Position numbers and translations under genes: made by a program
Notes under the pieces: model-generated
The model's input: only the letters and a program-made list of their open reading frames with translations
Told to the model about the DNA's origin: nothing
Databases searched by the model: none
Assembly (NCBI GenBank): GCA_022828595.1
Contig: JAKGHH010000002.1
Location: forward strand, 110,109,254-110,173,253
From: Nelumbo lutea
Taxonomy: Eukaryota > Streptophyta > Magnoliopsida > Proteales > Nelumbonaceae
Reading direction: 5' to 3'
Length of the DNA: 64,000 nucleotides
In this document: positions 10,901-45,700 of the stretch, one piece after another
Position numbering within the stretch: the first letter of the stretch is position 1
Layout: every line of letters begins with the position of its first letter

Positions 10901-13642
10901 TCCTTTTCAACTCTTGTGTTCTACTGCTTCTCCCTCTTCCTCCTCTTTTCTCTTTACCTTTCTTCTTATTTCGAACCTGAAATCCATTAGGGTTCAAGAC
11001 TGATAACAGTCCTGAACTTCTACTCCCTCAATAACTAGTCTTCTAATGTTCAACTCCCTTGCTCTTTGGGCACCTTCCAGGGTTGCAAGGATCTCAGCCC
11101 TAAGAGAGTCTCCTTCCCCAATAGGACCTGAGAATAGGTCTGTAAACGGTATCCGGAAATTCGAATTCGAATTCGAATTTTGACTTAAACGAATCGAATT
11201 TGAATGATTCAAATGGAATAAATGTTCAAATTTGAATATAATTTTTGTACCGACTATTTAATCGGACCGAATTCGAATATATATTGATTTGATTCGATAA
11301 TATTCGAATTCGATAATAGATATTATAATATATAAATATATTATATTCTAATTTGACTAACTTGTAGTGCACCTTTTACACACGACCCAAAGCGTCACCT
11401 GTATCTACTTATTACAAAAGACATATAAAAGTTGCTCTTGATTCGTTTACCGAGATACCAAAAGCCTTTCAACTTTTTCATTTACCAAGACACCAAAAGC
11501 CTTCTTTTCTATATCTCTTCTCCCCTCTTTCTCCTCCCTCTCTGTCTCTTTCGTTCTCACACTCAGGATGAAAAAAGTTTAGAGAGAAAGTAAGGAGAAC
11601 CAACTTCTATCAAAGACGAAAGGGCTTCTGAAGACTAAACTTCAACTTCTGTCGATTGGGGCCATTATCCAAGATTTCTTGCTCTTACTTTGTTCTCTCT
11701 CTCCTTCTCTATCTCCCGCTTCTTCTTTCTTTTGGATTATGTTTTTTTTTGTCTATTTTCTTTCTTGTTTTAGATTTTTTTAGGCTTTTTTTTTGCACTG
11801 TTAACAAGTGATGATTTTATTTTTTGAGTTTTTTTTTTGGTGTTGTTCACATGCAATGGTTGTTTCTCCTCTTTAGTTTGGTTTTTAGATTTATAGTTTT
11901 CTCTGCAAAATTGGTTATAATCGAATATTCAACATTTTAATCAAAATCGAATCTGGTTGGGATTTCTGAATACCCGACGGATTTCGAGTCGAATTCGAAT
12001 CACTTATTATGTAATTGGAATCGAATTCGAACATGGCCTGATTCGATTTGAATTCGCTCCATTTACAGGCCTACCTAAGAACATGGCTAAGAAAAAGCCC
12101 CTCCTTATTCCTAAGAACTCCCCCAATACCAGACAGCCCTGGGTTCCTAAAGCTGCTGCCATCAAAGTTTAGTTTTATAAACCCAATGGGAGGAGGGGTC
12201 CAAGAGGGATTAGAAACCCTTTTGACCTTGGCAGAGTTAGCTATCTCCTTCCAATTCCTCAACAAGTCATCTAAGGAGAAGTCTGAAAATAAGTCCAAGG
12301 ATTTCAGCCAGTGTACCTGATGCAGGAGCTGAAGAGTCAAAATTGGAATTTTATGATATTTTATGTATTTCTGTATTTTTTGACAGTAGGGGCATGTTTA
12401 AAATTTCAGTCATTGCATAAGTAGGATCAGAGCTATTGAGTTTTCTTTGAATTGAAATAGGATATGACAGGTTAGTTTGACTCCTAAGACTATTATGAGT
12501 CTAACAATTTGACTCCTAGGATTATTATGAGTTTAGAGTCCATAAATATGAATGGACGTTTTACACAAAGGTAATGAATTATATTGAGTTTTCTTCAGCT
12601 TATGCTAGCTATGGTGAGTGATTCCCATGCCCTAGAGTGATTCTAGGCACCCTGTGAGTGATTCTCGGTATTTTCTCTCTTCTTTCTCTCCCTATTTTCT
12701 CTTTTGTTCTTTCAAGAAGCCATTACAGCCATCAATAGCCATAAAACTCTGATCAAGAAGACCATTCAACATTCTCTAAGGACTAGAACTGAGCTGGTCC
12801 TACATCAGTTGGTATCAGAGCTAATGGTTTATTCACTATGTTCTCACAAAGTGACTGATTCTATAGGCCTAGGGTATCTTCTAGACAATCTTAAGGTCTA
12901 GAATCAATGGTGATTGGGTTTCTAAACCATATGAAGTGTCTTTGGTTGACTTATTTGAGAAGATGGTGGAAGAAAACAGATCTAATAATGTTGGCTACGG
13001 GAGTAAGGTTTTCAAACATGTCAGAAGACAAAGGGAAATACCATATTTCAAAGGAGATGTTGATCCGCAAGCATTCTTTGATTGGGTTGCTGAACTAGAA
13101 GAATATTTTGATTGGCATGATATGCTTGACAAACAAAGGATTAGATTTGCACGCATGAAGCTGATGAGTCATGCTAAAGTATGGTGGAGAACTCTTGAGC
13201 AACGACTAGAAAATAGAGGCAATGATCCAATTAGTACATGGGCAGAGATGAAGAGGTGTTTGCAAGAAAAGTACATCCCACTAGACTTCCATGATGATCT
13301 ATATATAGAGTTGACTAATTTCGAGCAAAAGAAGCAGCAACAGGTTATGACAAAGAACTTGAAGACTGAGGAAATAGTTGGTTAGCCATGAGTGTGGGGT
13401 TCCATACCCACACTCAGGCTCTAGTGTGTGTGGTTTCATACCCACACCTAGTTGTTTCTAATTTCTTTTTAGTAGTTTCTAATATTCGTTATTAGAAGTT
13501 TCTAATTTCTGTTAAGTTGGGCAGGTTGGCCTTATTGTTTCTAATTTTTGTTTATTTCCTATTCTTGTAAGGATCCTAAAAGCTATAAATAAAGAAGTGT
13601 ATGGGGCGGCAGATCATTCACCACCGAACCCCTTCTTTCTTT

Positions 13643-13691
<49 letters not shown>

Positions 13692-16600
13692 TCTCTTCAA
13701 ACCTGTAATACAGTAAACAGTTCTTCTTCTTCTTTCAAGTTGGTACCAGAGCCTTAGATCTAGGGTTTCTCATGTGGATTTAATTCAGCTGACCACATGA
13801 GAATTGTTTAGGGCTGAAAGTTCAGAAAGATCCTTATTTTGGCTGATTCTTGGAGGTTGCAAGAAGGCTTTAGCAGCTGTCCTAAGATTGGAGAGAGCTT
13901 ATTGTAATCAGGAAGAATCAGGCAGGAATTGAGTGATCAAGATTGGAGGTGCCAATCAACTTTTTCTTGGTTCTTTGATCAATGGTGCTGATAGTAATCG
14001 ATTGAAGTTTGAAGACTGAAGGTAGCAATCAGTTTTCTGGCCTTTTTTCTTCATAAAGTTGGCTGTTATCAGCCTTGAAATACAGCTTTTTCTTGTCACA
14101 GTAGTTTAAAGCCTCTTCTTAACTTAGAATGGAGTACAAGAATCAAGGGGAATGTGCTTTTGGGATTGGTGGTTCAGGTAACATGACAGAAAACACCTTT
14201 CAGATTACAACTGTTAAATTTGATGAATCAAACTACTTGGAATGGGCCCAATCAGCCATGATGGCTATTGGGGGTAGAGGAAAATTGAACTTCTTGCTAG
14301 GGGATGTGAAGGAACCCTCCAAGGAGGACCCTACTTATGCTAGGTGGGTCCAAGAGAATTTTTTGGTGATGACATGGCTGTGCAACTCTATGCAGCCAAA
14401 CATCAGCCAAAACTACTTGTGGGCCAAAACAGCTAAGGAAATATGGAACGTTATGAAGGAAACCTACTCTCAACCTCTTAATGTTGCTAGGGCTTATGAG
14501 CTAAAATGTGAGGTTAAAACTCTGAGACAAGGAGAAAAGCAGGTCTCTGTTTACTTTTCAACCTTAAAATCCCTGTGACATGAAATTGGCCATCTTGAAA
14601 CAATCGAGTGGGAGAGTTAGAAAGATGCACAAACATATAGAAAGCAGGTTGAAACTAACAGAGGTTTTGAGTTCCTAGCTGGTCTGAACTCTGAATATGA
14701 CATTGTGAGACAACAGTTGTTGACAAGAGATGATCTGACTTTATCACAAGTCTAATCCCTAGTGCATAGTGAATAAACTAGGAGAACGGTTATGTTGCAG
14801 CAACAGCCCTCCGAATCAGCCTTGTAGTAGTTAGACCTAAATCTGGGGGGATAAGGAGAAGAAGGAAGCTAAGAAGGACTTAGTATGTGAACACTGCAAG
14901 AAACCTAAACATATTAAGGACACCTGTTGGAAGTTGCACCATCATCTAGTTCCAACAAAGCTCTAAAATAAGAAAGGGAATGCTAACATGGCTGTCAACA
15001 CTGGTAGTACAACTTCATCAGGCACAAGATGCACTCCTCTAGATACCCTAGCTGCAGTCCGCGTTGCTTTAACTCAACTAGAAAATGAATTTAATAATTC
15101 AGCTCAGCCTACATCAGCTCAACAGCCTACTTCAGCCCTTGCTCATACAGGTACAAGAGCTACTGCTTGTCATGCTTCTGTTCCAGGTAATACTAGACCT
15201 TCCTGGGTAATAGATTCAGGTGGGAGAGACAGTTTCTATTGTTGATGGCTCTCTTATACCAATTTCTGGCAAGGAAGACATCAGATTATCAGATACCATC
15301 ACCCTATCCTCAGTTTTGCATGTTCCCAAGCTTATTGCTAACTTACTTTCAGTTAGTAGTACTACTAAAAATCAAAACTGTTCGGTAACTTTTTTCCCTG
15401 ATCGGTGTATTTTTCAGGATCTGAAAACGAAGAAGGTGATTGGGATTGTCCATGAGATGAATGGAGTCTACCTCCTGGAACATTCACAGGGGGAGCAGAG
15501 TGAAGCAGGGAAATTGTTTGTTTCTCAGTCTTGTAGTAAGATTATGCTTTGGCACAACCACTTAGGTCATTTATCTTTTGGGTCTTTAAAGAGTCTTTTT
15601 CCAAACTTGTTTGAGTCAGTAGAAGTGTCTAGGTTAAAATGTGAAAGTTGTGAACTTGCAAAACATAGTAGATCATCTTATCCTTTAAGTAATAAAAGAA
15701 GCAACCTTCCTTTTGAGATCGTGCATACCGATGTTTGGGGGCCCTACCATACTCCCACCATGGGGGGGTACAGAAATTTATTATTATGTGTTGATGACTA
15801 TACCCGTTTTTCATGGGCCCACCTTATGCACTCTCGAGATGAGGTCCCCTCTCTGACCCAAGCTTTCCATCAAATGATCCTAACTAATTTGAAACCAAGA
15901 TCAAGATTCTTAGATCTGATAATGCCAAGGAATACTTTGCAAAACCCTTGGCATCCTATCTCCTTGATCATGGGATCATTCATCAGAGCACTTGTCCTCA
16001 CACACCTCAACAAAACAGGGTTGTTGGGAGAAAAAACAGACATATTTTAGAAGTAGCTAGAAGCATCATGCTCAACTCCAATGTTCCCATACACTTTTGG
16101 GGAGATGCAACCCTTACAGCCATATACCTCATTAACAAGGTTCCTTCATGGATCCTAAACATGCAAACCCCATTCAGTCTTCTATATCCAAATAAGGACC
16201 TATTCACTATTCCCCTCAAAACTTTTGGGTGTACTTGTTTTGTTCAAATCCTTAGACCTCATCGCTCCAAGTTTGATCCCAAAGCCACTAAGTGTATTTT
16301 CCTTGGGTATGCACAAAATCAAAAGGGATATTGTTGTTATGAGCCAGTTTCAGGGAAGCGCTTTGTATCCATGGATGTCACCTTCTTTGAGGATATGCCC
16401 TACTATCATAAGGCTTCTCCTTTAAGGGGGAGAATAGTGAGGAAGGGATTTCAGTTTCAGCTCCAATAGTTCCTTTACTTGTCCCAATTACTGGGGTGGG
16501 GGTGTGTGTTGCGAAGAAGGTTGTCAAAAATGCAGGGAGTTGAGAGTGTATCATAGAAAGTGGTGGAGGCAGGTTGATTCTCGTACTCAACAACAATCCA

Positions 16601-18704
16601 AGCCAGTTCCAACATCTTCTATAGCTCTAGATTCAGACACTATTGCTCCCACTGTTGATCCCACTGTTACAGAGGTTCAACGTTCACCGACAGATGACCT
16701 TGATCTTCCAATTGCTATTCGTAAAGGGAAGCGCCATTGCACCCCATCCACTGCACATTGCATCTCCAAGTTCCTTTCCTATAATTGTCTCTCAGAATCC
16801 CACATATCTTACTTGGCATCTATTTTTGCTATTCCTATACCAAGAAAAGTGCAAGAAGCTCTTTTGATACCTGAATGGAAAGAAGCAATGCAAGTAGAGA
16901 TGGATGCTCTTGTCAAGAACAACACATGGGAACTAATTAACCAGCCTGAAGGGTAGAAACCTGTTGGATGCAGATGGGTGTCTACTGTGAAATATAATGC
17001 TAATGGTACTGTAGAGAGGTATAAGACCAGATTGGCCACTATTTCAGTTGGATGGTACTATCAGAGTTCTTCTATCCATTGCTGCAAACTTCTCATGGCC
17101 ACTATTTCAGCTGGATGTTAAGAATGCCTTCCTCAACAGAGACTTGCAAGAGGAAGTATACATGGAGTTACCCCCTGGTTTTTATAGTACAAAAGCAGGA
17201 AAGAAAGTTTGCCTTTTGAAGAAGGCCTTGTACGGGCTGAAACAATCCCCGAGAATTTGGTTTAATAGTTTTTTTTTTTATCAATAACCACAGAATTCAT
17301 TAATATTGGAAAAAAGTTACAGGGAAGAGGAGCTAAAGATTCTCAACTCCTCATAACAGAAATAATCTTGGTTTGATAGGTTTAGACTGGCTTTGGATAA
17401 ATTCAGATACATACAGGATCGGTTAGATCACACTCTCTTCTTTAAGAAGACAGATCATTCCCTGACTCTACTTGCAGTCTATGTAGATGACATTGTGATA
17501 ACAGGAAGTGACACTAGTGAAATTGAAACCCTTAAACAACACATTCACAAGGAATTTGAAGTGAAATACCTAGGAAGGTTACACTACTTCCTAGGAATTG
17601 AGGTAGCTCAATCTAAGCATGGCATTTTCATCTCCCAAAGGAAGTATGTTCTAGACTTATTGGAAGAAGCTGGCAAGTTAGGAGTGAAACCTGCTGATAC
17701 TCCCATTGAGCCTAACCATAAGATAAGTGCAAAAAGTGGAGAACTCCTTGAGGAAAGGACTATGTACCAAAGGCTGGTTGGGAAACTTCTTTATCTCTGT
17801 CTAACCCAACCAGATATTTCTTATGCCGCCAGTGTTGTCAGTCAATACATGCATTCTCCTAGGACCACCCATCTCCTTGCAGTAGAAAGGATTCTTGACT
17901 ACTTAAAGAGATGTCTAGGGAGAAGTATATTCATCAAGAATAATGAATAATGGTCATATGGAAATAGAAGTGTATACAGATGCGGATTGGGCTGGATGTG
18001 TTGATGATAGGAGGTCCACCTCTAGATATTGTGTATTTGTAGGGGGAAATCTTGTTTCCTGGAGAAGCAAGAAACAAAACGTTGTTGCTTGCTCCAGTGT
18101 AGAAGTGGAATACAGATCCATTGCCAATGGTGTTGCAGAAGTGTTATGGCTGAGATCCTTACTTAATGAGTTGGAGGTTGATTATGAGAAGCCTCTGATG
18201 TTGTATTATGATAATCAATCTGCAATTAATATTGCCCATGACCCAATACAGCATGACAAGACTAACCATATCGAGTTTGACAGACATTTTATCTGAGAGC
18301 AAGTTGCATCTCAAGAAGTATGCCTTCCTTACATTACCCCAGACATGCAGTTAGCTGATCTCTTTCGAAGCAGTCACAAAGGCAAATTGGAGACAGATCT
18401 ATACAAGTTGGGCATGACAAATATTTACTCCCAACTTGAGGGGGAGTGAGGAAATAGTTGGTTAGCCACGAGTGTAGGGTTCCATACCCACACTCAGGCT
18501 CTAGAGTGTGTGGTTTCATACCCACACCTAGTTGTTTCTAATTTCTTTTATTAGTAGTTTTTAATTTCTGTTATTAGAAGTTTCTAATTTCTGTTCAGTT
18601 GGGCAGGCTGGCCTTATTGTTTCTAATTTTTGTTTATTTCCTATTCTTTTAAGGATCCTAAAATCTATAAATAAAGAAGTGTATGGGGTGGCAGATCATT
18701 CACC

Positions 18705-18783
<79 letters not shown>

Positions 18784-21700
18784 TCAAACCTGTAATACAG
18801 TAAACAGTTCTTCTTTCAAGTAAGACAATGGGAAGAAAGTACAAAGTTAAAAAGAAAGTAGATGATTCCTTGCATGTTGATACCTATCCTATAGCTGAAG
18901 TTGAGGATGAAGCTAAAGAATAATTTCAAGCTATAGAAATTGTAGATATTAAAAATCAAGAGGGTGCATGCCAAGAAAAAAAACAATAATTGTTGGAGTT
19001 TCCAACACCCATGATCAGCCTGAGGTTAATGATCAAGAAGAAATAGAAGAGGAGCAAGTTAAAGAAATTTAGGTGCAAAATACAAATGTGTTGACTGTAG
19101 TAGATCCTAATAAGAAAGTAAGTGACTTTACCTTTCAAGTTCAACTAGAACCAATTCAAGAATTGCAACCTAACATAGAACAAGTCCCACCAATATCAAC
19201 AATGAGAGTCCTACAGTTTGTTGAAGAACCAAGGATAGCAGAACACATAGAGATGGTGATTCCTAAGTTAGAGATTGAAGGAAAGGTTCCCAATGTTGCA
19301 GTTAAGAGTTTGGATAAGCAAAGAGAAGATTCATCATAATGGTTGGTTGATGAATTAAGTGTTCAAAAAGTAATGTTATCGATGATTTCACAAAGATGGT
19401 TAGGGAAGTCAGTGTTTTAGAAATACATTTCTTTCAAGATCCTTTTCTAGTTCTGTGTGTGGCCTCTACTCTACAATCCAAGCACATAGCTGTGGGAGTC
19501 CTACTCCCTTTGTAATTAAGGCATATCAACTTTTCATCTTCAAGTTGTTCAAAACTCGAGGACGAGTTTTTCTCAACCGGGGGAGAATGATGCAAGAGCT
19601 GAAGAGTCAAAATTGAAATTTTATGAATTTCTGTATTTTTGGACAGTAGGGGTATTTTTGTCATTTTTGCAATTTCCTATTAGGGTCCAATGATAGGGTT
19701 TGAATTGTCTAGTTATAGCTTGTTTATGTTTAAAATTTCAGTCATTGCATAAGTAGGATCAGAGTTATTGAGTTTTCTTTGAATTGAAATAGGATATGGC
19801 AGGTTAGTTTGAGTCCTATGGTGAGTGATTCCCATGCCCTAGAGTGATTCTAGGCACCCTGTGAGTGATTCCCGGTATTTTCTCTCTTCTTTCTCTCCCT
19901 ATTTTCTCTTTTGTTCCTTTCAAGAAGCCATTACAGCCATCAACAGCCATAAAACTCTGATCAAGAAGACCATTCAACATTCTCTAAGGACTAGAACTGA
20001 CCTGGTCCTACATCGGTATCATTCTTAAGTTTATCAATTCCAATAAGTTTCCAATGGTTCTCTCCTTTTCTGAGAAAATTCATAAATCTCTTTCTTCCCA
20101 TAAAGACCAGCAAACTGTTGCCCTAATACATCTCCATATAATCCTCCCTCTTTTCAAAGGCCTTCTAAAGTAAGGAGAGAAAAGGCTTTCCGAATTCGGG
20201 GGGGGGGGGGGGGGGGGGGGGGGTCCAACTACACCCAAAGAGGGAGAATACCCATTCTCAAATAGTTCTAGCAACCAGGCAAGAAACCAATAAGTGATAA
20301 CCAGTTTCCCCTTCAACTTTGCAGAGAATACACCTATGCGGGGATAAACAAGAATTGGGTCGCTTTCTTTGAAGCAGGTCACCAATGTTAATTCTTTCCA
20401 AGAATATCTCCCAACAAAAATTGCCAACCTGAGGAGGAAAGGGCTTGCTCCAAACGCCTTTAACAGGGAAAGACTGACCACTAGAGGTACCGGAAGAGGA
20501 TGGGGTCCAAATTCTGACATCTTAGTGGGATCCAAGAAAATGTTTTCAAGAATGGTTAACAAATTCAAAGTACAACTAAGTTCTATGTCCCTAACAGCCC
20601 TTCTCAAGCCCAAGTTCCACCCAAACCCAGAAGAGGAGTCTGAAGACGCAATGAAAGAATTGAAAAGTTCATTCTTCAGATCAGATAGAGCATACAAAGA
20701 TGGGAACTGGTCCATCAAGGGAGAATTGCCAACCCAAGTTTGCTCCCAAAACTTTATAAGGTTACCAGAATTCAAATCACACCTGATCCAAGGAGAGAAA
20801 GCTAGAAGAAGATTATGGATGGCTCTCCAAGGTGAAGCACATGTAGTCCTTGCCAGAATTCCAAGATCCTAGCCATTGTTCCCCAACCCATGAATGCTAG
20901 CCACTATCTTTGTCCACAACTTTTCCTTTTCCACCGGAAACCTCCAAAGCCACTTCCCCAATAAAGCCATGTTTCTTTTCCTGATGTTCCTAATCCCAAG
21001 ACTACCTAGCTTCTTGCACCTAGTCACCACCTCCCATGCTACCCTATGGTCCCTCTTCTCCTCTCTTGGCTCCCACAAGAAATCTCTTATTAATTTTTCC
21101 AATTTATTGGAGACTTGTGGGTATCTTAAAGACTGACAAGAAATACACAGGCAGGTTAGTTAAGGTAGACCTGATCAAAGTGATCATACCCCCTAAAGAA
21201 AGATAAGTTTTCCTCCAAGAACAAGTCTTTTCTCAAGACTTCTTTTTTTATAGTTTTTAGCACTTAATCCATTATCAATACTCTATAATATCACGACAAA
21301 TGTAGGAAAGTTCCCATTCAAATAAGTGGCTTGCAACATATACATTATAACCAAAAACTTTCTTTGAATACTCAATGATGTAAACATTGAATCCACAGAA
21401 TCCAGGAGAAAGCTTGCTTGATTAAGACTGAAGATTGTGAAGCATACATACTATTTGCAGGGCTATGAATTTAGTTCTCCTAGATCAGGTAAAATTTATA
21501 CCTTAGAAATTCAAGAGAGCAGCAACCTTCTGCAATGGCTATCACTCCCACATCAGTGATTTGAATACACCTATCAAGTCATAGACAAGCCCTCATCAAG
21601 CTGCATACCTTTGTCTTTGTTTCCATCACTAGCTATAACAGCTCATAAGATTTAACTTACCATGTCAAGTTCAGAGACACCAGATTCTTGCACTTGGCTA

Positions 21701-30700: not shown

Positions 30701-33700
30701 GGGGATGGGCTTAGACCAAACTTCCCTCCAAAGATACGGCTGAGGGTTAGGGACGGAACACAACTGAGAGAAAAAAAAGAGGCACAAGAAAAAAAGCCCA
30801 GAGAATTGGGTATCTAGATTCTAGCATCAGGTTTAGAAAAGTCCAAACAAATAGTGACTAGGGTTTTGAGTAACAAAGAAGCTTGATCAAGTTCAATGTC
30901 TCTTAGATCTCTTTTGAACCCCAAATTCCAACTGAAACCAAAGGACTGAGAGAAATAAACAAATCCTTGAATGGGATCACTTTTAAAAAGGGAAAGGGAA
31001 TACAAAGATGGATAAAGGTGTCTCCCAAAACAGAATTCTATCTCCAGTACACGCATCATACCCGATAAGGCTGAGAAATTGGGGAAGGATACCGTGAATA
31101 GCCTTCCACGGAAAGTTTAGAATAGTCCGCTGAGACACTCCAGCATCCCAACCATTTTGAACACATCCAGGAATACTTCCCACAAACTTATGACAAAGCC
31201 TCTTTCTAATGGCCATCTCCATTTACCCAACAAAGCTACATTCTTCTTCCCTATATTGCCTAACCCCAAACCCCCTTGCTCCTTACTTCTACAAACTAGA
31301 TCCCACCTCACCATGTGATCTTACCTTCCTTCACCAGGATCCCATAAGAACTCCCTCATGATCTTCTCTACTTTCAGTACCTCCCTTTGTGGCTCTCAAA
31401 GACTAAGAGGAAGAAAACCGGAAGGTTTGCTAAAGTAGACTTAATTAGAGTTATACAACCCCCTAGAAACACACAATTCCTCTTCCAAGCTAATAATTTC
31501 TTAGCACATCTTTCAAGAATTGAGCTCCAAAAGCTTCCTTCCCATGGGTTGGATCCTAGAGGCATACCTAGATATTTCAAAGGCCACCTAGTGGTAGGAC
31601 AACCTAAGGCTTTTGCAACCCCAACCATCTCCTCCTCTCCCAAGCTCAGTCCCACTACGCAACTCTTTTCAAAATGGTTCTTCAACTTAGAGACAAATTC
31701 AAACAGTTTGATCACCTGCTTCAAAGTACTTGTCTTTTGAGGATCAGCACTCTCATAAAAAATAATCGTATCATCAACAAACTGCAAATGTGTAACAACT
31801 AGGGGTGCTCACAATTCGATTAACCAAACCAGTAGTACTGGTTTTTGGAAAACCAATAACCAAAACCAAACCAAAGTTGATCGGTTCCATTCATCATTTT
31901 TTTTGGTTTTCTTATTTTTAAAACATTTATTATAAATAAATATATAATAAAAATTAGAAATACATATAAAATATTATATTATAAATAATAAATAATATAT
32001 TATATATAAAAAATATATAATATACATAAATATATAATATGTAAATATATATATATTGGTCGGTTTGGTTAATTGCCAGGTTTTTATATTGGTTAACTAA
32101 AATGGAACTGGTACCTTCGGTTTTTCAAAAATACTGAAATAAAACTGAACCAACTAGTTCGGTTAACCAGAATTTTCAATTCGATCTCGTCGATTCAGTT
32201 TTTTGGTTTTTCTTGCTCACCCCTAGTAACAATTGTGCTCTCTCTCTCTCTCTCCCAACCCTCCAACCTTTAAATAGTTCCAAGCTATCAACTATTGCGA
32301 TAAGACTACTAAACACCTCAACTACCAAGGTAAATAAGAAAGGAGAAAAAGGGCCCCCTTGCCTCAAACCTCCAACAAATCGTGCCCTCTCTCTCTCCCC
32401 TAGTAGCAATCATGCTCTCTCTCTCCCCTAGTAGCAATCATGCTCTCTCTCTCCCAACCCTCCAACCTTTAAATAGTCCTAAGCTATCAGCTCTTGCGAT
32501 AAGACTACTAAACACCTCAGCTACCAAGGTTGTTGAAGATTAATTAGTTTTATGATGTTTTTCTAAGTAGATGTTTTATGTTAGTTATTAGATAGGAGGT
32601 GGGGATCATAGTAGTTATGTGAGTCCAAATTTTATTATGTTTTTTGAGTGTTATATATGCTGTTTTATGTTTTGCCACCCTATAAGGGCATAGTTGTCTT
32701 TGTATTGTTCTATTATTTTAGTATAAATAATAAGTGAAGGGGGTGCCCAAATTATTGCTCTCTTTTCTTTCAACTTCTCTTCTTCTCTTCTTCTCCTTCT
32801 CTCTTCCTTCTCTCTTCAAGAAACTACTTTCTTTCATATTTTTTAATTCAGCAGATTTCTACTTGGTATCAGAGCGAGGCTAGGGTTTCTTGAAGCATTC
32901 TTATGCAGCCCTAGATCAGTCGACTGCATGAAGTAGTAAAGGGCTGATCGATTTGCTATAGATTGCCCAGTTCTTGGAGTTTTTGGTGGGATCTAGACAT
33001 CAAGAAGGTGATCTACTGTTCGGCATCAAAATTAGGAAGAACTGGAGTACGGGGAAGAGTCCTAGAAAAGTTGGACTCTTTGTTTTTTATTTGATCTTGG
33101 GCACCCAGGTATTGTTAGTTTTCTTTTGATTTTCTAAAGAGGGCAGTTTCGTTTCTGAAATTTTCTAGGCCTCCCGGAGTGATCGATTCACTTTTCTCTC
33201 TGTTGGGAGGCGTGGGGAGGAGAGAGATTTCCCTCCAGCTAGGGTTTTCTTCTTCCGAAAGGGTTGGTTTCTGTGTGTGTGGTATTAAATTATTTTTTGA
33301 AGGTCTCCAATCTTTTTTTTTTCTATTGTTGAATTGTTTGAAGTAAAATGGAGAGTTAGAATACCGAGATGAAATCTACCGGTACTGTGGGACTGGATGT
33401 TGGAGGTAGTAGTGATATTTTTGGGTCTGGGATCATTACTACAGTAAACTTTGATGGTACAAATTATTTGGAGTGGGCACAATCAGCTAAGATGGCTATC
33501 GGTGCCCATGGAAAATTAGGGTATCTCACTGGGGAGGAGAAGAAACCTGACACAGACTCTTCCCGATGGGTGCAAGAGAACTGTCTTGGCTGTGTAATTC
33601 TATGTTACCTCATATTGCAAAAAATTTCCTATGGGCTAATACTGCTAAGGAGATTTGGGATGGAGTGACTGAAACCTACTCTCAAAAGCAAAATGAAGCC

Positions 33701-36700
33701 AAAGCCTATCAGTTAAGAAATCAGGTGATAAGTATGAAACAGGGAGAAAAACCTCTTGTTGTGTATTTCTCCATGTTGAAAACCCTATGGCAGAAAATAG
33801 ATCACTTAGAAATTGTGGTTTGGGAAAGTGTAAATTGATGCAGCAACTTATCACAAACTAGTAGAGAGGAATAGGGTTTTTGAGTTCTTGGCAAGGCTGA
33901 ACCCTGAATTTGACATTGCTAGGCAGCATATTCTTTCTAGGGAGGGTGTGACACTCTCTCAGGCCTATGCTTTTGTCTCTGGAGAGGAGAGTAGGAGGAA
34001 TGTAATGCTAAGACAGCCTGGGATTGACCAATTGGCTATGGTTGGTACAACAAAACCTAAGTCGAATGGAGACAGGGGGAGTAGTGAGACTAGAAGGGAA
34101 GATAAGAAGGACTTGGTGTGTGATTATTGCAAGAAGCCTAAGCATACCAGGGACACTTGTTGGGATATTTATCCAAATCTTATGCCTGCTCGGATAAGAA
34201 ACAAGAAGGGAAATGCAAATGTAGCCACTACAGGAGATTCTTCAGCCCCTCTCTCCCAAAGATTGGGAATCCATTGCGGTAGCAGCAGTGAGAACAGAAT
34301 TAGAGAGGTTTGAACAGCTTATGAGTAAGAAAGATTCACCCAGCTCTAGCCTTCCAGATGGACAGCAGAATGCAGGAGCCAACTACACCACTTCCTTTGC
34401 ACATACAGGTAGTTCATATGCAACTACAAATCTTGCATCCACTTCAGTTAAGGAGGGACCTCCCTGGATTAGAGACTCAGGAGCATCTGAGCATATGACT
34501 AATGCCCCTACCATTTTCAGTTCCTATCAGTTGTGCTCTGGTAGAGACAAAATCTCTACAGTAGATGGTTCACATATGCCCATTGCTAGGAAGGGGACAA
34601 TTAGAGTGACCAATGATATAACTCTGTCCTCTGTTTTACATGTTCCTAGACTTCATACCAACCTATTGTCTGCTAGTTCTTTGACAAAAATTTTGAATTG
34701 TTTTGTGACCTTTCTTCCTGGTAATTTGTTTTGCAGGATCTGGAGTCAAAGAATATGATTGGGAGTGGTCATGAGGTGAATGGAGTCTACCTTCTGGATG
34801 AGATTCTGAGACATCAGGGCCATCATGTTAGCAGTAGCAGTAGTAGTGGGTCAAAGTCAGTAAACCAGATTATGCTTTGGCACAATCGCTTGGGACATCT
34901 TTCTTTTAGTTCTTTGAAATGTCTTTTCCCAAAGTTGTTAGAGTCTGTTCAATTATCTACTTTGGAGTGTGAGAGTTGTCAGTTAGGAAAGCATTGTAGA
35001 CAGTCTTTTAAACCAAGTAATAAAAGTACTTCTGCTTTTAATATTGTTCACATTGATGTATGGGGACCATATCAAATCCCTTCCATGGGAGGATTCCGTT
35101 ACTTTCTCTTGTTTGTGGATATACACGATATTCTTGGATATATTTGATGAGATCACGTGATGAGGTTCCTAACTTAGTACGACAATTCCACCAGATGGTT
35201 CTCACGCAATTTGGAGTGAGAACTAAGGCTTTTAGATCAGATAATGCCAGATAGTACTTTGAGAAGGACCTAACCACGTATCTCCTAGAACATGGTGTAG
35301 TTCATCAAAGAAGCTTTGCATATACACCGCAACAGAATGGAGTTGCTGAGAGGAAAAACAAACACATTGTGGAGGTGGCAAGGAGTCTTATGGTGTGTGC
35401 TTCGATTCCTGTGCAGTTCTGGGGAGATGCAGTTCTTACAGCCGTACATGTGATTAACCGTGTTCCTTCACGGACTTTGGGGTTTAAGGTGCCATTTAGC
35501 CTCCTTTTTCTAGATGGAGAGATATTTCATATACCTCTGAGGGTTTTTTATTGTGTTTCTTTAGTTCACATTCTTGGTCCTCATCACAAGAAATTGGATT
35601 CTAAGGCCAAGAAATGTGTTTTTCTTGGGTATGCTCTGAACCAAAAGGGGTATTGTTGTTATGACCCTGTTATGGACCCGGGCGTAGGATCTCGTCACGG
35701 GTCGGTCCATGGGGAGAACCTCTAGTTTCCCCTTGCCTCTCCCTTTTCGTGCAGACCCTATCATAGCGACCTGAGGGGTGATTTGTCCAAGAGATCACCC
35801 TAACTCTCATTTACTCTTCTCTTTGACTGAAATTTTGGATGCCTTTATTCAATAATAGTGGCTCCTTAAATAGGAGATTACAAGAGTCCTGCTCTTGGGA
35901 AGACTCCTTGCTGAATAGGGAGACCTCCAACTCTATCTTGATAAGATAAGATAAGTCTCTCTTAATCCTAATCTAATAAGATAAGATAATCTAATCTACT
36001 AACTTAATAAGATAAGAATAACAAGATAGTCTAATCTAATCTGCTGAATGGATAAGATTGTTGTTGTCGAATTGGATAGGATGAGAACACCGGATCATTG
36101 TTGTTGCTGCTCCCAATACGCGTCCACATCATTACTCCCCTCTTGGACTACGAGCTTGTCCTCAAGCTCGAATTCAGGGTGGGTGTCTGGAAACACAGTC
36201 AAAGGAATACCGAATAGGTGGAATGACTTTGCCCTCCTGGATCGGGTTCCAATGAAGAGGGTTCATCCTCATCTTCCTCTTGTTTCACCAGGAGGCAGAA
36301 AAGTCTCTTGCACTTGTGCCCTGCTGAGTAGAGTTCATCGCAATTAAAGCATTGTCCCCTCGCCCTGCGTTCCGCCATCTCAGCCCTGGACAAGTGCTTA
36401 ATAGGGGGTGCAACAACACTGCTCCCCACACTGGATGCTGATCTGGAATTGTTGCTCGTCGGTGGCTTTCGTTCTTGACTGGCTACTGAATATGGAGCCA
36501 TTCCGAGTGGTTCCGGGGATGCCCATGCTGATGGAGGCCGCCCCATACTGAAAGTTCCACGGCTAAGTTGTATTTTGCGTTCGAAGGCGCGAGCTATATT
36601 CATGGTTGTAACCAGGTTGGGGGGATTATGCATTTCCACGTCCACCCGCAGGGGTTCAGCTAACCCAGCGGTGAACATGTCTACCTGCTGGTCCGATCGC

Positions 36701-39700
36701 ACTAAAGATGCCCTCGCAAGGAGGGTCTGGAACTGGCGCTGGTATTCTACCACTGTGTCAGTTTGTTTAAGGTTAATCAGCTCGCCTAAGGGGATGCTTG
36801 TCAGTGGGGGCCCAAATCTAAGAAGGCAGTAGGACTTGAACAAGGTCCAACTGAGCCCAGGTTCTTCCTGTTCTAATCGATAGAACCAGAGTTGTGCTTC
36901 CTCTGTTAAGTGAAAGGCGGCTAGGCTTACCTTATCCCAGTCGTCTGTCCGTTGATTTCAAAAAAACTGCTCGCACCGGTACAGCCAGCCCAAGGGATCT
37001 CCTTTGTCGTTGTACGACGGGAATTCTAACCTGCTGTACTTGGGGATGACTGTGGCCCCCTGGTTGCCGAACTGCTGTTCACCGGAAGACTCTGGCAGAT
37101 CTGGTCGGCGGCTACTAGTGGTTGTCACCCCTTCTGTGTTCCTCTCTTTGCTAGAAAGGAATAACTCCATCAGATGCTGTAGCTCCCTGACTTCGTCCTT
37201 GATTTCCCGTACTTCCGAGCTGGTCTCCATGAGCCGGTGCTCGAGTTCGTGGACCCTGGACGGCAGCTGCTCCAGATCACCCATGACGCCTTGCTCTGAT
37301 ACCAAAATGTTATGGGCCCAGGCATAGGATCTCGTCACAGGTCGGTCCACGGGGAGAAACCTCTAGTTTCCCCTTGCCCCTCCCTTTTCGTGCAGACCTT
37401 ATCGTGGCGACCTAAGGGGTGATTTGTCCAAGAGATCACCCTAACTCTCCTTTACTCTTTTCTTTGACTGAAATTCTAGATGCCTTTATTCAATAATAGT
37501 GGCTCCTTAAATAGGAGATTACAAGAGTCCTACTCTTAGGGAGACTCCTTGCTGAATAGGGAGACCTCCAACTCTATCTTGATAAGATAAGACTGATAAG
37601 ATAAGATAAGTCTCTCTTAATCCTAATCTAATAAGATAAGTCTCTCTTAATCCTAATCTAATAAGATAAGATAATCTAATATACTAACTTAATAAGATAA
37701 GATAAGAATAACAAGATAGTCTAATCTAATCTGCTGAATGGATAAGACTGTTGCTACCAAATTGGATAGGATGAGAACACCGGATCATTGTTGTTGCTGC
37801 TCCCAATACGCGTCCACATCAGACCCAATGTCGATGAGTAGATTTGTCACTATGGATGTTACCTTTTTTGAATCCACATTCTTCTTCTCGAGTGGTTCTC
37901 CTCAGGGGGAGAGTTTTGGGGAGGAGAACTCACAATCTGTTTCTCTTCCTGTTTCTATGGTGCCTCCATCAGTTCAACCAGCATCCACATCAGTTCAGCC
38001 ACCACCTGCACCATCAGTTCAGCCAGCACCTACACCTCCAGTTTCATTACCTAAGTCACTATGGGTAGCCTCAAAGCAATATCAATGCCGACAAATGATG
38101 GTTGACTCCACACATTCTCGACCCACACCACTCTCTGTCAGTCCTTCTAAAACTCCAGATTCGACAGATATAGTTCCAGGTATTCCTCTTGAGCCTGAGC
38201 CTGTTATGTTTTCTAATGATAATGTTTCTATCCCTAACATCATTGTTGCAGCTGATCCCACTGACCTTGATCTTCCCATTGCACTTTGTAAGGGGAAGAG
38301 AAAGTGTACAGCCCACTGCATTTCACACCATCTTTCCTACAATGCCTTATCACCCTCCTACCGTGCTTTTCTTTCTTCCTTGGATTCCGTGTTTATACCT
38401 AGGAATGTTACTGAGGCTCTCTCCAAACCTAAGTGGAAAACAGCCATGCAAGATGAGATGGATGCTTTGGTCAAAAACCAAACTTGGGAAATAGTTGATC
38501 TCCCCCCAGACAAGGAGATAGCCGGATGTTGATGGGTATTCACAATGAAGTATAAAGTCGATGGCAAGATAGAGAGGTACAAGGCAAGGTTGGTAGCAAA
38601 AGGGTATACTCAGATCTATGGTGTTGATTATCTGGAAACCTTTGCACCAGTAGCTAAGATGAGTTCAGTTCGTAACCTTTTATCTCTAGCAGCCACCAAT
38701 TCATGGCCCTTGTTCCAGCTTGATATCAAAAATGCTTTCCTCAATGGTGACTTACAGGATGAAGAATATATGGACATTCCAACAGGCTTTTATGAAAATG
38801 TTGGTAAATGAATGGTGTGCAGACTCAGAAAATCTCTGTATGGACTGAAACAATCACCTAGGGCTTGGTTTGACAGGTTTAGAGGGGCACTCACCCGTTT
38901 TGGATACACATAGACACAGTCTTATCACACCCTCTTTGTGAAGATGAGAGATGCTTTGGTGTCAATTCTGATTGTGTATGTGGATGATATAGTGGTGATA
39001 GGAAATGATCTGGAGGAGATTGATGATTTCAAAAAATCATTGCAGCAAGAATTTAATATCAAAGATCTTGGTGAGCTCAAATACTTCTTAGGGATTGAAG
39101 TTGCAAGATCCAAGCATGGGATCTTCATTTCACAGAGAAAATATGTACTTGACCTACTGCGAGAGACTGGGAAGCTAGGGACCAAACCAGCAAACACTCC
39201 TATTGATCCAAATCATAGAATTAATGGTGTGGATGGTGAATTGGTAAAGAATGTGCGGAGATATCAAAGAATGGTGGGCCGGCTGTTGTATTTGTGTATG
39301 ACACAACCAGATATTTCTTATGCTGTCAATGTTGTGAGTCAGTACATGCATGCACCTCGGGTTCAACACTGGGAAGTTATTGAGAGAATACTTGCATATC
39401 TGAAAAAGCACCCTGGCAGAGGCATTCTTTTATCAAATCATGAGAAGCTGAAGCTAGAATCCTATACAGATGCAGACTTGGCAGGATGCTTAGATGACAG
39501 GAGGTCTACATTAGGAGTGTGTACCTTTATAGGTGGAAAACTGATCTCTTGGAAGAGTAAGAAGCAAGCGGTTGTGGCAAGGTCAAGTGCAAAGGCTGAG
39601 TACAGATCCATGGCTCATGGTGTCTCAGAACTTCTTTGGGTTAGATTTCTTTTGAGTGAGATTGGGGTAAAAGCAGAGGAACCTATGATGTTATACTGTG

Positions 39701-42700
39701 ACAATCAGGCTGCAATCAATATTGCCCACAATCCAATTCAGCATGATAGGACAAAACACATTGAAGTTGATAGACACTTTATAAGAGAAAGGGTAACAAC
39801 CGGAGAATTTTGTTTGCCTTATGTCTCTTCAGAGTTGCAGCTACTGATGTTCTCACTAAAGGGGTGGCAAGGAACAAGCTTGAACATGATCTACGCAAGT
39901 TGGGAATGTGTGACATTTACTCCCAACTTGAGGGGGAGTGTTGAAGATTAATTAGTTTTATGATGTTTTTCTGAGTAGATGTTTTATGTTAGTTGTTAGA
40001 TAGGAGGTGGGGACCACAGTAGTTATGTGAGTCCAAATTTTATTATGTTTTTTGAGTGTTATATATGTTGTCTTATGTTTTGCTGCCCTATAAGGGCATA
40101 GTTGTCTTTGTATTGTTCTATTATTTTAGTATAAATAATAAGTGAAGGGGGCGGCCAAATTATTGCTCTCTTTTCTTTCAACTTCTCTTCTTCTCTTCTT
40201 CTCTTCTTCTCTTCTTCTCCTTCTCTCTTCCTTCTCTCTTCAAGAAACTACTTTCTTTCATATTTTTTAATTCAGCAGATTTCTACTAAAGTAAATAAAA
40301 AAGGAGAAAGAGGATCCCCTTGCCTCAAACCTCTAGTTGCTGGGAAAAAAAAGTCTCTAACCACTCCATTAACTAGGACTGAGTAATGACATGTTTTCAA
40401 ACAGCCTTCAATCCATCCACACCATTCCTCTTCAAACCCAAAAATTTTCGAAGTGTCCAAGAGGAAGGACCAATCCTTTCCTTCTATGTGTCATTCTCTT
40501 CATTATTCTCTCTTCTTCATTTTGTCTGCAACATTAAAGCTTTTCAATACTAGTATAAAGTCCAGTTATTTCCTTGCTTTTCTAGAAAGCCCTACATCAC
40601 AAGGCTTCTTTATTATGAAAAGAATTTGGATTTTCAATGAACAGAAGGTTGAGAAGGTTAGGTGATGAGCAAGGACTAAAAGAAGACATATTTATTACTG
40701 TTGTGAGGATTATTTAATTGTTATTTTATAGTTGTTGTTAGTGGGTTGTCAGCTTAAGATGCTGTCATTTAGTTATTTTCTTTCTTTCTTATTAGTTTGT
40801 TTCTAGGGAGTGCCGCCAGGGGCATACTTGCAATCTCCATTCTTTTTATATTAAGTTAATATAAATAATGAACTAGCGGCAACCAGAAGATGTTTTTTTC
40901 TTTTTCTCTCAATCATATCTTCCTCTTCTTCTCTCTCTCTCTTGTCTCTCTCTCTCCATGAATGATTACATGGTACCAGAGCCAGGTTCTGGGCTATAAA
41001 AGAATTTCGGTCTCTCCTATTTGAACCTACTTCGTCCTCTTTTTCCTTCTTTGATTTCTTGGACGTGGAAGACAGAGAAACCCTAGCATACTACTTGCGG
41101 CTCTTCCTTTGGGTTCTTCCTTGGTCGTAATATCAAGGAAACCCTAGTCGAAGAAGGGCGATGCAGAAAGAGACTCCTTTTCTTCTCTGTTCGATGCTAT
41201 GAAGTCAGTTTCTGGTTGGCACCCTCGTACAGGTGCTGGACAGGGTATGTGTTCTTGTTTTTTTGTTTTATGGCCAATGGTGTGAAGGCCTTATCCCTTG
41301 GTTCTATACAATCGTTTGGATTCTGGATTGTTAGACTGTATGAGCTATAGTCTGACTGATAGTATACTATTCTAACGTCTGCCTTGGTTGGGCCTTATCT
41401 CTTGGACTGATTACTGGGTTGTTTTAATGACTGAACCATCACTGAGTTGATTTCATCAGTTTTTTGTTTTCTCTTCCACACCCCAGAAGTAAATTTCTTG
41501 AGGGTTGGTGTTCTGTTTGTGGTTGTTGTGTAGTTGTGTGGGATTTGGTCTGATTTCAACAGTACTCTATGGCAACCTATGATTCAACTTCATCCGGGAT
41601 TACACCGACCCGCAGCACAGCTGGTATGGGAGGTGAAAACATGATGTTTCCCATGCCCATTACCCCTTTAAATGGTCTAAACTACCTGGAGTGGGTTAAA
41701 GGTGTAAAACTTTATGTAACGGCGAGGGGAAAAGCTGGTTACATAAATGGAATGGTGAAAGAACCCAAGAGTGAGACAGCTGAACAAGATAGGTGGGACC
41801 AAGAAAACAGTATGGTGATGTCTTGGCTCCTTGCAGCCATGGAACTTGATGTGAAGAACTTTATGTGGGCAGACACCGCTAGTGAGATCTGGGAACAGGC
41901 CCAAACTACCTATTCTAAGCAAAGGCATTATGCCAAAGTTTACCAATTGCAAGCTGAATCCTCAACCTGTAAACAGGGAAATCGTACTTTGTCTTTCTAT
42001 TATTCAGCCCTTACTCCTACATGGAAAGAATTGGGTCATTATCAGGCTATAGAGTGGAAACATGATGACGATGCTAAGGCCTATAGGAAGTTGGTTTCTC
42101 AGCAGCATGTGTTTGCCTTCTTGTTGGGAGTGAACCTGATGTGGACGCGTTTATTGGGAAGAAGTATAGCCGCCGGCAGTAGCAGTAATTGGGTGTTCTC
42201 AGTTCTCATCTTATCTAATTCCAGCTAGATACAGTTCTACCTTATCTATTCAGCATTCTTATCTTATCTGTTTTCAGTAGTAGGATTAGTAGGAAGTCCT
42301 ATCTATTCAGTGTTCTAATCTTATCTGTTCAATAGTATAGATTAGTAGGGAGTCTTCCTAAAAGCAAGACTCTTATCTCTTGTAATCTCCTATTTAAGGA
42401 GCTGATAATATTCAATAAAGGCATCGAAATTCTCAATCAAGACAGAGTAGAGGAGAGCCGGTGATCTCTTGAACAAATCACCACTAAGGCGCCAAGATAG
42501 GTTCCTCAAGAAAAGGGAGGAACAAGGGAAAACATGAGGTTTTCCTGTGGGCCGACCCGTGACGAGATCCTATTCTCGGGCCTGTAACAAATTGGTATCA
42601 GAGCAAGGCGTCATGGGTGACCTTAACAGTTGACGACTAAGGTTCATGAACTGGAGCACAAGCTCATGGAAAACAGCACGAAGGTGCGCGAGATCAAGGA

Positions 42701-45700
42701 CGACGTCCAAGAATTAAGGCGCTTGATGGAGTTGTACTTTTCCAGCAAGGAAAGGAACCCGGAAGGGGCTGCAACCACAATCGGCCGCCGACCAGACATG
42801 GCAGAATCGTCCGACGAGCAGCAGGTCGTTGCCCTAGCGCAGGTTAGCAACACCCAAAATGTCCCGATTAAGCAGGAATCCGGTGTCGTTGAGGATTCCA
42901 TCGACGAGAGTTCAAAGAAGAATAAGAGCAACTACTCCAAGGTCGTCATCGTTGGCCTCAACGGCGACCCTCACAAAAGCGACGGCGATGACTGTGCCTC
43001 CACCGCTCCTCCTGATTCCACCAGGAGCATTAAGGAAGAAAATTGTGAAAGTACCTCAGTATGTAAAGACGATGTGGTTGATGCCACTGAAGGGGAAGCT
43101 AAATGGTTAAATAAACTGGGGAAGTGTCATTCAAGAATTAACAAGGGCAAATGTTCTCTCAAACGTGGGCCTAATAGGGATGCTGATCAACACTGTCAAG
43201 GGGCTCCAGCATCTCGTGAGGAAAAAGTCAGCAGCCTTAAAACTGGTTTGGTTCATGTTGCAAGGAAGATGCCTAAAAATGCCCATGCACATTTTATACT
43301 TGGCCTAATGTATCAGAGGTTGGGTCAACCACAGAAGGCAGTACCAGCATATGAAAAGGCAGCAGAAATATTACTTCAGAGTGAGGAAGAGATTGACAAG
43401 CCTGAGTACTTTCTTTGGTTCAAATTCATCATGCACAGTGCCTCCTGCTAGGAAGTACAATTGATCATTGTGCCGATAAAGAACTCACGCATGAAGAACT
43501 TGGAGAAATTATTTCTAAGTTGAAGAAGTCAGTGCAGTCAGATATTAGACAAGCATCTGTCTGGAATACACTTGGTTTATTACTTATTAGAACCGGCCAT
43601 CTACAAAGTGCTATATCGGTTTTATCCTCTTTGTTGTCTATTGCTCCTGACCACTTGGACTCCCTTGCAAATCTTGGGATTGCTTATCTTCAAAGTGGTG
43701 GCTTGGAGCTGTCAATGAAATGTTCTCAAGATTTGATTCTAAAAGATCAAAACCATCCTGCGGCCCTAATCAATTACGCATCTCTTCTTTTGTGTAAATA
43801 TGGTTCGGTTGTCGCAGGTGCTGGGGCAAGTGCTGATGAAGGAGCTTGTATGCCTCATGTTGCGGCTGTAAATGTTGCAAAAGAGTGTTTGTTAGCTGCA
43901 GTCAGATCAGATCCTAGGGCTGCACACATCTGGGTGAATCTTGTTAATGCATACTATTTGGCTGGTGATCATAAAAGTACTGGAAAAGCCTGGAGAAGGC
44001 AACAAAACTGGAGCCTAATTGCATGTCATCTCGATATGCTGTTGCGCTTCATCGTATCAAGGATGCAGAAAGGTCTCAAGATCCCACTGAACAACTTTCA
44101 TGGGTTGCGAATGAAATGGCTTCAATACTCAGAGAAGGGGACTCTACAACAATTGAGCTTCGGATAGCATGGGCAGGACTTGCCATGGTTCACAAGGCTC
44201 AGCATGAAACTGCAGCAACGTTTGAAACTGAACATAATGATTTGACGAAAGTGGAAGAGCGAGCTCCATACACACTAAAGCAGGCAATAGAAGAGGATCC
44301 AGATGATGCAGTTCAGTGGCACCAGCTTGGCCTTCACAATCTTTGTACTCTACGGTTCAAGACATCTCAGAAGTACCTTAAGGCTGCAATTGCCCGCGGC
44401 AAAGAATGCAACTACGCATGGTCAAATCTTGATATCTCACTGCAGCTATCTGAGGATGAACCCTCTTCATTGGGACCCGATCCAGGAGAGCAAAATCATT
44501 CCACCTATCCGGGATTCCTTTGACTGAGTTTCAAGACACATATCCTGATTTCAAGCTTGAGGACAAGCTCTTACTCCAGGACGGGAGTAATCATGTGGAC
44601 GCGTTTATTGGGAAGAAGTATAGCCGCCAGCAGCTGTCAATGGGTTAGCTAAACAATGGGGTAAATAGGGATTCTGTTTTCTGGGCTCAATTGTAACTAA
44701 AAGCTCTTCTTTTGGATGGCTTTTGGCCTCCTTCAGGAGTTAAGAAAGTTTAGCTCCCCTCCCTTGTATCTTATTCTTTTTTATTAATGGAAAGTTCTGT
44801 TACTGATCAAAGAAAAAGGCTGGGGGTTTGGTACACAGGACCTATATACAGTTAAAGGGCCCACATAACTTGCCACCTGTCCTGTGTTTGGAGCATTAGA
44901 ACCCACCATCAAATGGGTCTTACCAACAAGATCAGCTGGATCAGAAATCATCTTGTACAGAATCATCTAACTGCTATACAATATTTAAATGGAAAGTGGA
45001 GAAAAGTTTTTCTTAAAGTTAACAAGTAGTTCTATAAAAATGTGCACATCAGACGGTTACAGTTGTTTGATTACAGTGCACAACCATAGTTTTAGCAGGG
45101 AGACACTCAATGGTTGGACCTAGTTCTTGAAAAAGGAACAAGTTGCAAGTTAATGGGGCCCTAGAGCTGTATCCCCAAACCCAAGATGCTCCATTTAGGA
45201 ACCAGTCTTTGGGGGGCCATTACTTAGTGTAATGGTAAAATCTTGGGCTCACAAGCATGACAAAATGGGTTCAATTACCCCATGGCTGGGACCAACATTG
45301 GGTAACATTTTACAGTTGGACCAAGTAATGGCCCCTATAATAGCAATAAAAGCATGCACTTAAAAACAGATACATTGGATTCCTTCATTTTTCTTTTGGT
45401 TTATCAACAACAAAAAGCATCACTTATTTGAATTAATTGGAAACTGACTCGATTTGTTGGATGAGTAGGTTGTTCCCAAAGTAGAAAGAGTAGTAGATGA
45501 AGTCCTGTTGGTAGTAAAGCATTTTCTAAAAATAGACACCACTAAGAATAAGAATAACCTGGAAAGGAGCCCTTTTTCATGATAAAGAGAAATCAAAATC
45601 ACCTGTTTACATACCTGGTGAGATTCAAAAACTCCAGCTCTTGATAATTATCGGCAATTAGGTTCAAGCTTTTGTCTGTGATATTCTGTGCATGACATCG

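Follow-up and report, generated by a model that had tools for sequence, protein, structure and literature searches.

The stretch of Nelumbo lutea DNA analysed here (64,000 nucleotides, hereafter the window) carries on its forward strand an LTR retrotransposon whose gag reading frame encloses an intronless copy of a host TPR gene. A sister element lacking the host gene lies on the opposite strand. The features, in window coordinates, are the following:

About 35717..37821, minus strand: sister TR-GAG without host gene, of the other LTR type, with an LTR pair and a 5-bp target duplication
41569..42136, plus strand: Copia-like gag, the host site of the element's insertion, named by resemblance to the window's other Copia-like copies
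42137..42589, plus strand: 5′ LTR with a type 1 U3, starting TGATGTGG and ending TGTAACA, matching the LTRs of other copies
42592..42604, plus strand: primer binding site TTGGTATCAGAGC
42613..42834, plus strand: N-terminal remainder of gag, ending at the 5′ join and alignable with both the sister element and L064, an uncaptured relative
42832..42834, plus strand: 5′ join CCC, common to host mRNA and recipient gag
42832..44456, plus strand: captured host TPR cDNA (20–1652 of 2001 in the parent CDS), with 10 introns absent
44451..44456, plus strand: 3′ join TGAGGA, common to host mRNA and gag
44457..44523, plus strand: gag tail to the stop codon, the ORF ending at 44523
44524..44590, plus strand: non-coding tail with polypurine tract
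44591..44633, plus strand: 3′ LTR remnant of about 43 bp, the remainder missing

The LTR termini are TG...ACA, as read in copies with target duplications, and short repeats occur inside the 5′ LTR of the window copy. A 41-bp outer repeat corresponds to the start of this LTR and to the remnant at the other end; since the 3′ LTR is reduced to that remnant, the window copy is 3′-truncated. Its reading frame is broken by one frame shift in the gag N-terminal part and two in the TPR part, which has also lost 6 bp in frame, in agreement with the three single-base breaks reported in an initial annotation of this locus. The sister element and the window copy show 89% identity across 44451–44604. The tail at 44524–44590 has what we take to be a resemblance to the end of a pol polyprotein.

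The parent of the insert is a TPR gene of the At5g63200 type with 11 exons, located on another contig (C4). The insert matches it exon by exon (95.62% identity across 1599 of the 1608 parent positions compared), and all 10 parent introns are missing exactly at the splice sites, with exon–exon junctions near window positions 43024, 43244, 43337, 43438, 43606, 43695, 43817, 43998, 44283 and 44431. The captured host cDNA amounts to about 1.63 kb, or about 544 codons, and the last 115 or so host codons are missing. The proposal of the initial annotation that an intronless host TPR copy had been acquired through RNA is borne out by these junctions, and the circumstance it had named as speaking against this proposal, an intronless and adjacent parent, is not what the genome holds. 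Chance similarity is ruled out by 1.6 kb of 95% identity and ten exact splice junctions, and capture of genomic DNA by the absence of introns. Nine amino-acid positions separate almost all copies from the C4 gene; at four of these, the copies carry the residue shared by 58 or 59 of the 60 orthologues compared, a set that includes many near-identical Vitis proteins. These residues imply either a change in the C4 gene after the capture or, as donor, a sister gene that has since been lost. The Nelumbo record P0002 is a predicted protein only.

Both joins are defined by comparison with L064, which has the same LTR type as the captured element and which, as the nearest uncaptured relative among those read, stands in for the exact recipient. 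Because gag-like sequence of L064 extends to 42832–42834, the 5′ join is placed there rather than at 42824/42825, as originally annotated. At the 3′ end, the expected short sequence fitting both host and gag is TGAGGA. Both joins, with their overlaps of 3 nt (CCC) and TGAGGA, keep the reading frame, as had been claimed. Relative to L064, about 0.79 kb of gag has been replaced and not just interrupted, and the replaced segment is the capsid and zinc-knuckle part. A domain search finds Retrotrans_gag and Ty3_capsid in the sister element, which together with its LTR pair and 5-bp duplication establishes it as the genuine TR-GAG first annotated.

The sister element and L064 fit the plan of TR-GAGs (Chaparro et al. 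2015, cited in PMC10552921): LTRs, a primer site, a polypurine tract and a gag gene, with pol lacking. The captured family differs from this plan in that a host TPR gene takes the place of the gag capsid and zinc knuckle. It retains a primer binding site and a polypurine tract, and its lack of pol follows from the shortness of the internal region; the combination of a gag domain with no pol is not found in it, the open part of captured copy L009 yielding TPR-type domains only. Since the capsid and zinc-knuckle domain of gag has been lost, the captured element is a derivative of a TR-GAG, within Ty3/Gypsy, and not itself a TR-GAG. On this point the initial description is corrected.

In line with retroduplication, the insert has lost the introns of an intron-bearing parent, lies between LTRs and has moved with them. 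The poly(A) of a retrogene is absent, and the 3′ edge of the insert falls within host codons. Neither poly(A) nor a flanking duplication was seen at the insert edges in the window copy or in comparison with L064. Together with the replacement of gag, this rules out an independent retroposition into gag, the second objection considered in the initial annotation. In a related scenario, the TPR cDNA would first have inserted within or next to a gag-only element as a normal retrocopy, with later deletions removing the middle of gag, the poly(A) and the duplication. Intron loss is expected on this route as well as on that by template switching, but the missing poly(A), duplication and final host codons, the exact short in-frame overlaps with gag at both edges and the several additional steps required make it very improbable.

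The window copy is one member of an amplified family. Places with the 3′ join number 68 and those with the 5′ join 57, giving at least 75 places altogether on eight contigs, with no hits for reversed-pattern controls of either join; the search for further copies with the same junctions, advised at the outset, was thus amply answered. Both joins are paired in 50 copies, 41 of which are internally deleted. LTR pairs, some partial, are present in 17 of 20 fetched copies. Clean and mutually different 5-bp target duplications flank at least five of these 20 (L009, L010, L015, L027 and L028), the copies whose edges allowed a judgement. The element alignment comprises 18 of 21 elements (L016, L017 and L019 dropped out). 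The cassette sits on two LTR (U3) types, whose identity across 16 copies is 0.72 between and 0.91 within types, as against 0.948–0.953 for the cassette (L014, whose type is ambiguous, and L013, where the sequence upstream does not represent an aligned LTR, were set aside, which sharpened the contrast). The family is in this sense an LTR mosaic.

Taken together, these observations are best explained by two template switches between a co-packaged element RNA and a spliced host mRNA, followed by amplification in trans, to which we assign a probability of about 0.88. A gag-only, non-autonomous Ty3/Gypsy element of TR-GAG type and the spliced host TPR mRNA would have been packaged together. Reverse transcriptase would have begun at the 3′ end of the element RNA, changed template at TGAGGA, taken about 1.63 kb from the host mRNA and returned to the element RNA at CCC. 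The product would encode the gag N-terminus, TPR and the gag tail in a single frame, replacing the capsid and zinc knuckle. The hybrid kept its LTRs, primer site and polypurine tract and would therefore have been multiplied by capsid and enzymes supplied in trans. It reached no fewer than 75 places and two LTR types, and the internally deleted forms derived from it are now the majority. Both switch points lie in sequence common to the host mRNA and L064, which argues for template switching; against it, an overlap of 3 nt such as that at the 5′ join could arise by chance, and DNA end joining likewise uses short overlaps. A hybrid might accordingly have formed at the DNA level, by microhomology end joining between host and element cDNAs that had not integrated, a process of which short overlaps are also a mark. 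This is improbable, since two joins are needed that both keep the frame and preserve both LTR ends, and the later change of LTR type and a deletion with a short repeat at its borders suit the enzyme's own switching.

Capture of spliced host mRNAs by plant LTR elements is a known process, well documented mostly for elements without gag or pol (PMC5664825, PMC2774510, PMC13317346, in the parts cited). The initial claim that no TR-GAG with an in-frame host gene had been described stands, within these sources, only in that narrow form. Retroduplicated NLR and other genes similarly consist of spliced host mRNA from an intron-bearing parent in non-autonomous LTR elements (PMC5664825, PMC2774510, PMC3726574), but these are mostly without gag or pol coding potential, whereas the present insert is joined to gag on both sides without a break in the frame. 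Maize Bs1, a chimeric case of host-gene capture, likewise combines the structure of an LTR element with segments of host genes and a chimeric reading frame; as outlined in PMC13317346, it contains three partial segments from three genes, in contrast to the single host cDNA of about 544 codons found here, in a family at 75 or more places with a known uncaptured relative. Veju and BARE-1/BARE-2 illustrate, in the same source (PMC13317346), how new LTR-element forms arise by switching between packaged RNAs, the partner there being another element or unknown sequence and here a defined host mRNA.

The copies are now decaying neutrally. Among 353 single-copy differences in 13 copies (L041 and L043 left out), 91 are synonymous compared with 95.5 expected, ruling out constraint on present-day copies. 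Differences common to two or three copies number 88, of which 74 are of C-to-T type at CG or CHG sites; such changes can recur and were therefore not taken as ancestry. Four deletion classes, each in at least three copies, have net lengths of 888, 888, 57 and 30 bp, all in frame; they were read in 14 deleted copies chosen non-randomly from the 41 paired ones, those of L021–L024 directly from sequence. Classes A and B share the same net length of 888 bp. A short repeat marks the edges of class B, for which splicing was set aside on inspection, given this repeat and the lack of GT-AG.

The deletion classes raise the possibility that the element needed an open frame in order to spread: its copying would have been favoured by the fusion protein or by the mere act of translating the RNA, so that in-frame forms multiplied. 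This proposal would add to template switching and not replace it, and we consider it possible but unlikely. The four classes and both joins are all in frame, whereas of the 22 LTR indels with three or more copies on each side, 3 have a length divisible by three (3 of 18 or 4 of 19 without ill-fitting rows; Fisher p 0.002 to 0.008), as do 4 of 11 private deletions of at least 25 bp. Apart from the 30-bp class, read only once the idea had arisen, the frame test on the 14 deleted copies was done post hoc. However, the contrast fades when indels common to two copies are counted (4 of 8 versus 4 of 26, p 0.066; 0.05 to 0.08 on repetition), L009 and L011 have a common 5-bp gag deletion, and the deleted copies read were not a random choice. 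Substitutions, among which no constraint is seen, likewise speak against it, the branches common to the deleted classes being too short to add to this comparison. The in-frame deletions, set against the LTR indels, hint at a role of the open frame during spread but do not prove it. Tentatively, the family might be a parasite of a parasite: a capsid-less element that spread only as an unbroken gag-TPR-gag frame, favoured in cis through translation of its RNA or through a fusion protein joining helper particles via the gag N-terminus, with capsid and enzymes from other elements.

The present case is unusually complete to trace. A single genome preserves the donor gene and a near recipient, the two switch points, the spread, the later change of LTR type and the series of deletions, so that each step leading from the captured mRNA to a new family of elements can be followed. 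It also makes testable whether a non-autonomous LTR element needs an open frame in cis. Finally, the conserved host gene might become a target of small RNAs arising from these dozens of copies, which measure up to 1.6 kb and are about 95% identical to it, in keeping with the discussion of captured genes of maize in PMC13317346.

In the captured element, the primer site is followed by a short piece of gag, by the TPR stretch and by a tail that is again gag; a polypurine tract and a 3' LTR piece come last, the remainder of the 3' LTR being missing. The genome examined spans 843.7 Mb in 63 contigs, with the window at G000:C2:110109254-110173253.

Features of the captured element, its relatives and the host gene
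42137-42589, 5' LTR of the window copy
42592-42604, primer site of the window copy
44521-44523, stop codon of the gag tail of the window copy
about 43 bp, 3' LTR remnant of the window copy
35717-37821, minus strand, sister element without host gene
G000:C8:19964380-19966220, L064, relative without host gene, closer than the sister
G000:C4:5911343-5918387, minus strand, host TPR gene (L056/L057)

With the central part of the insert as query (17 of 17 candidates scored), the matches are copies of the insert and a single locus, on contig C4, that matches it exon by exon. Spliced at GT-AG sites, this gene has 11 exons and 666 codons, and protein searches find its orthologues across angiosperms, one labelled 'like AT5G63200'. 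Consistent with the initial annotation, which took the insert for an intronless copy of an intron-containing host gene, positions 20-1652 of the 2001-nt parental coding sequence are present with all 10 introns gone; about 115 C-terminal host codons are absent. Identity with the parent is 95.62% for the window copy, with 1599 of 1608 positions compared, and 94.1%-96.3% for the 13 larger copies. The sole carrier of the chimeric tail among 131 proteins from two protein searches is the Nelumbo nucifera record P0002 (UniRef A0A822XTB1_NELNU), which is a gene model of the transposon chimera and not a host gene; the match makes sacred lotus, or a plant close to it, the very probable host.

Both joins can be read against uncaptured relatives. 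L064, whose LTR is of the same type as that of the captured element (90% identity over the first 220 bp), aligns with it as far as 42834 and again from 44451. The sequence at the 5' join is GTCGTCGCCCCGG in L064 gag, GTCGTTGCCCTAGCG in the captured element and ACCCTAGCG in the parent, with a 3-nt overlap, CCC. The 3' join had been placed in sequence common to host and gag, as expected from template switching, and this is borne out: the sequence is CTGTCTGAGGACCC in the parent, GAAGATGAGGATGAACC in the relatives and CTATCTGAGGATGAACC in the captured element, with a 6-nt overlap, TGAGGA. The reading frame is kept across both joins, and the insert of about 1.62 kb stands in place of about 0.79 kb of gag. 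An independent retrocopy into gag, one of the outcomes named beforehand as contradicting capture, would carry its own duplication; neither poly(A) nor a direct repeat is present at the insert edges, and the lost C-terminus, the in-frame short-overlap joins and the replacement of gag also argue against it. Capture by two template switches fits these observations. The sister retains a capsid and a zinc knuckle (the latter read by eye), and matches the captured element at 89% identity in the tail (154 bp, 44451-44604) versus about 77% at the gag start and LTR end, so that the 3' end of the captured element may derive from another subfamily. The uncaptured family is large, a first search with the sister's gag giving 786 candidates, of which 40 were scored. 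Directly 5' of L064 lies an apparent polypurine tract of another element, as in tandem elements sharing an LTR.

Lotus has eight chromosome pairs. Other copies with the same junctions, proposed earlier as a check, are numerous: the 3' join pattern (41 nt, at most three mismatches) has 68 matches, on contigs C1 to C8, and the 5' join pattern (42 nt) 57, versus 0 for either reversed control. A 3' join accompanies 50 of the 57 5' joins, giving 75 distinct places in total, a count that leaves out copies with more diverged joins (for example L016 and L017) and in which two 3' joins 216 bp apart may be one locus. Join spacing is 686-755 bp in 41 pairs, 1633-1641 bp in five, and 1174, 1274, 1766 and 5949 bp in the remaining four. 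A separate similarity search for copies gave 81 candidates, of which 40 were scored. LTR pairs, several partial, occur in 17 of 20 fetched copies and diverge by K80 values of 0.032 to 0.112, corresponding to about 1.2 to 4.3 million years at 1.3e-8, a rate quoted in PMC5664825 that may not be this plant's. Five copies and the sister have clean and different 5-bp target duplications. The window copy, with most of its 3' LTR missing, is left out of both the dating and the duplications.

The family carries two LTR types. Across 16 copies (L013 and L014 left out), mean U3-side identity is 0.91 inside each of two groups and 0.72 across groups, whereas the TPR part that they have in common gives 0.953, 0.950 and 0.948; larger cassettes occur on both types (window copy and L009 versus L012). 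A uniform cassette on split U3 regions, with larger cassettes on both, indicates that the LTRs were exchanged after capture, a switching between elements of the same kind as that known for Veju and BARE-2 (PMC13317346).

Reading of 14 deleted copies (L021-L028, L058-L063) resolves a class A of eight, with a compound deletion, and a class B of six; the two deletions differ and are identical in net length, 888 bp. Three class B copies have lost a further 57 bp (class C) and three class A copies a further 30 bp (class D). The frame is intact after all four deletions. Of the 22 LTR indels for which each side is represented by three or more copies, by contrast, 3 have a length divisible by three (without ill-fitting rows, 4 of 19 and 3 of 18; p 0.002 to 0.008). 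With two-copy indels included, the comparison is 4 of 8 versus 4 of 26 (p 0.066; 0.05 to 0.08 in the LTR comparison without L013 and L014). A 5-bp gag deletion is common to L009 and L011, one base is missing at a single tail spot in each of L009, L010 and L020, and private deletions of at least 25 bp retain the frame in 4 of 11 cases. These data hint, without proving it, that an open frame mattered during spread.

At present, none of 21 copies examined has an uninterrupted frame from gag start to tail stop; L009 has an open TPR part but stops in gag. Alignment of copies with the parent, suggested in the initial annotation as a check on selection, was carried out, and the 353 single-copy differences match the neutral expectation (91 synonymous versus 95.5 expected). 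Of the 88 differences common to two or three copies, 74 fall at CG or CHG sites and are of C-to-T type, as would be expected for methylated copies. The parent differs from nearly all copies at 21 positions, enriched in synonymous changes (12 versus 6.3 expected, P 0.006). At four of the nine amino-acid changes the copies agree with 58 or 59 of 60 orthologues, many of them near-identical grape proteins, and the C4 gene differs, so either the C4 gene itself acquired part of the copy-parent difference once capture had taken place, or the insert came from a sister gene that no longer exists.

The available portions of a 2026 review (PMC13317346) cover Bs1, Rider, Veju and BARE-2, and the term TR-GAG is absent from them; among the matches listed, all openly licensed PubMed Central papers, none describes a TR-GAG carrying a host gene or a lotus case. 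The process is already known, and the present element is a new variant of it, resolved unusually well.

The window is packed with nested retrotransposons. LTR-like repeat pairs at 3128-10945, 12702-20017 and 32531-40214 mark Copia-like elements with related internal regions; a 131-bp unit is duplicated in tandem at 8717-8978 (97% identity), and an inverted repeat at 45213-45335 (32-nt arms, 81% complementary) is possibly a small DNA transposon.
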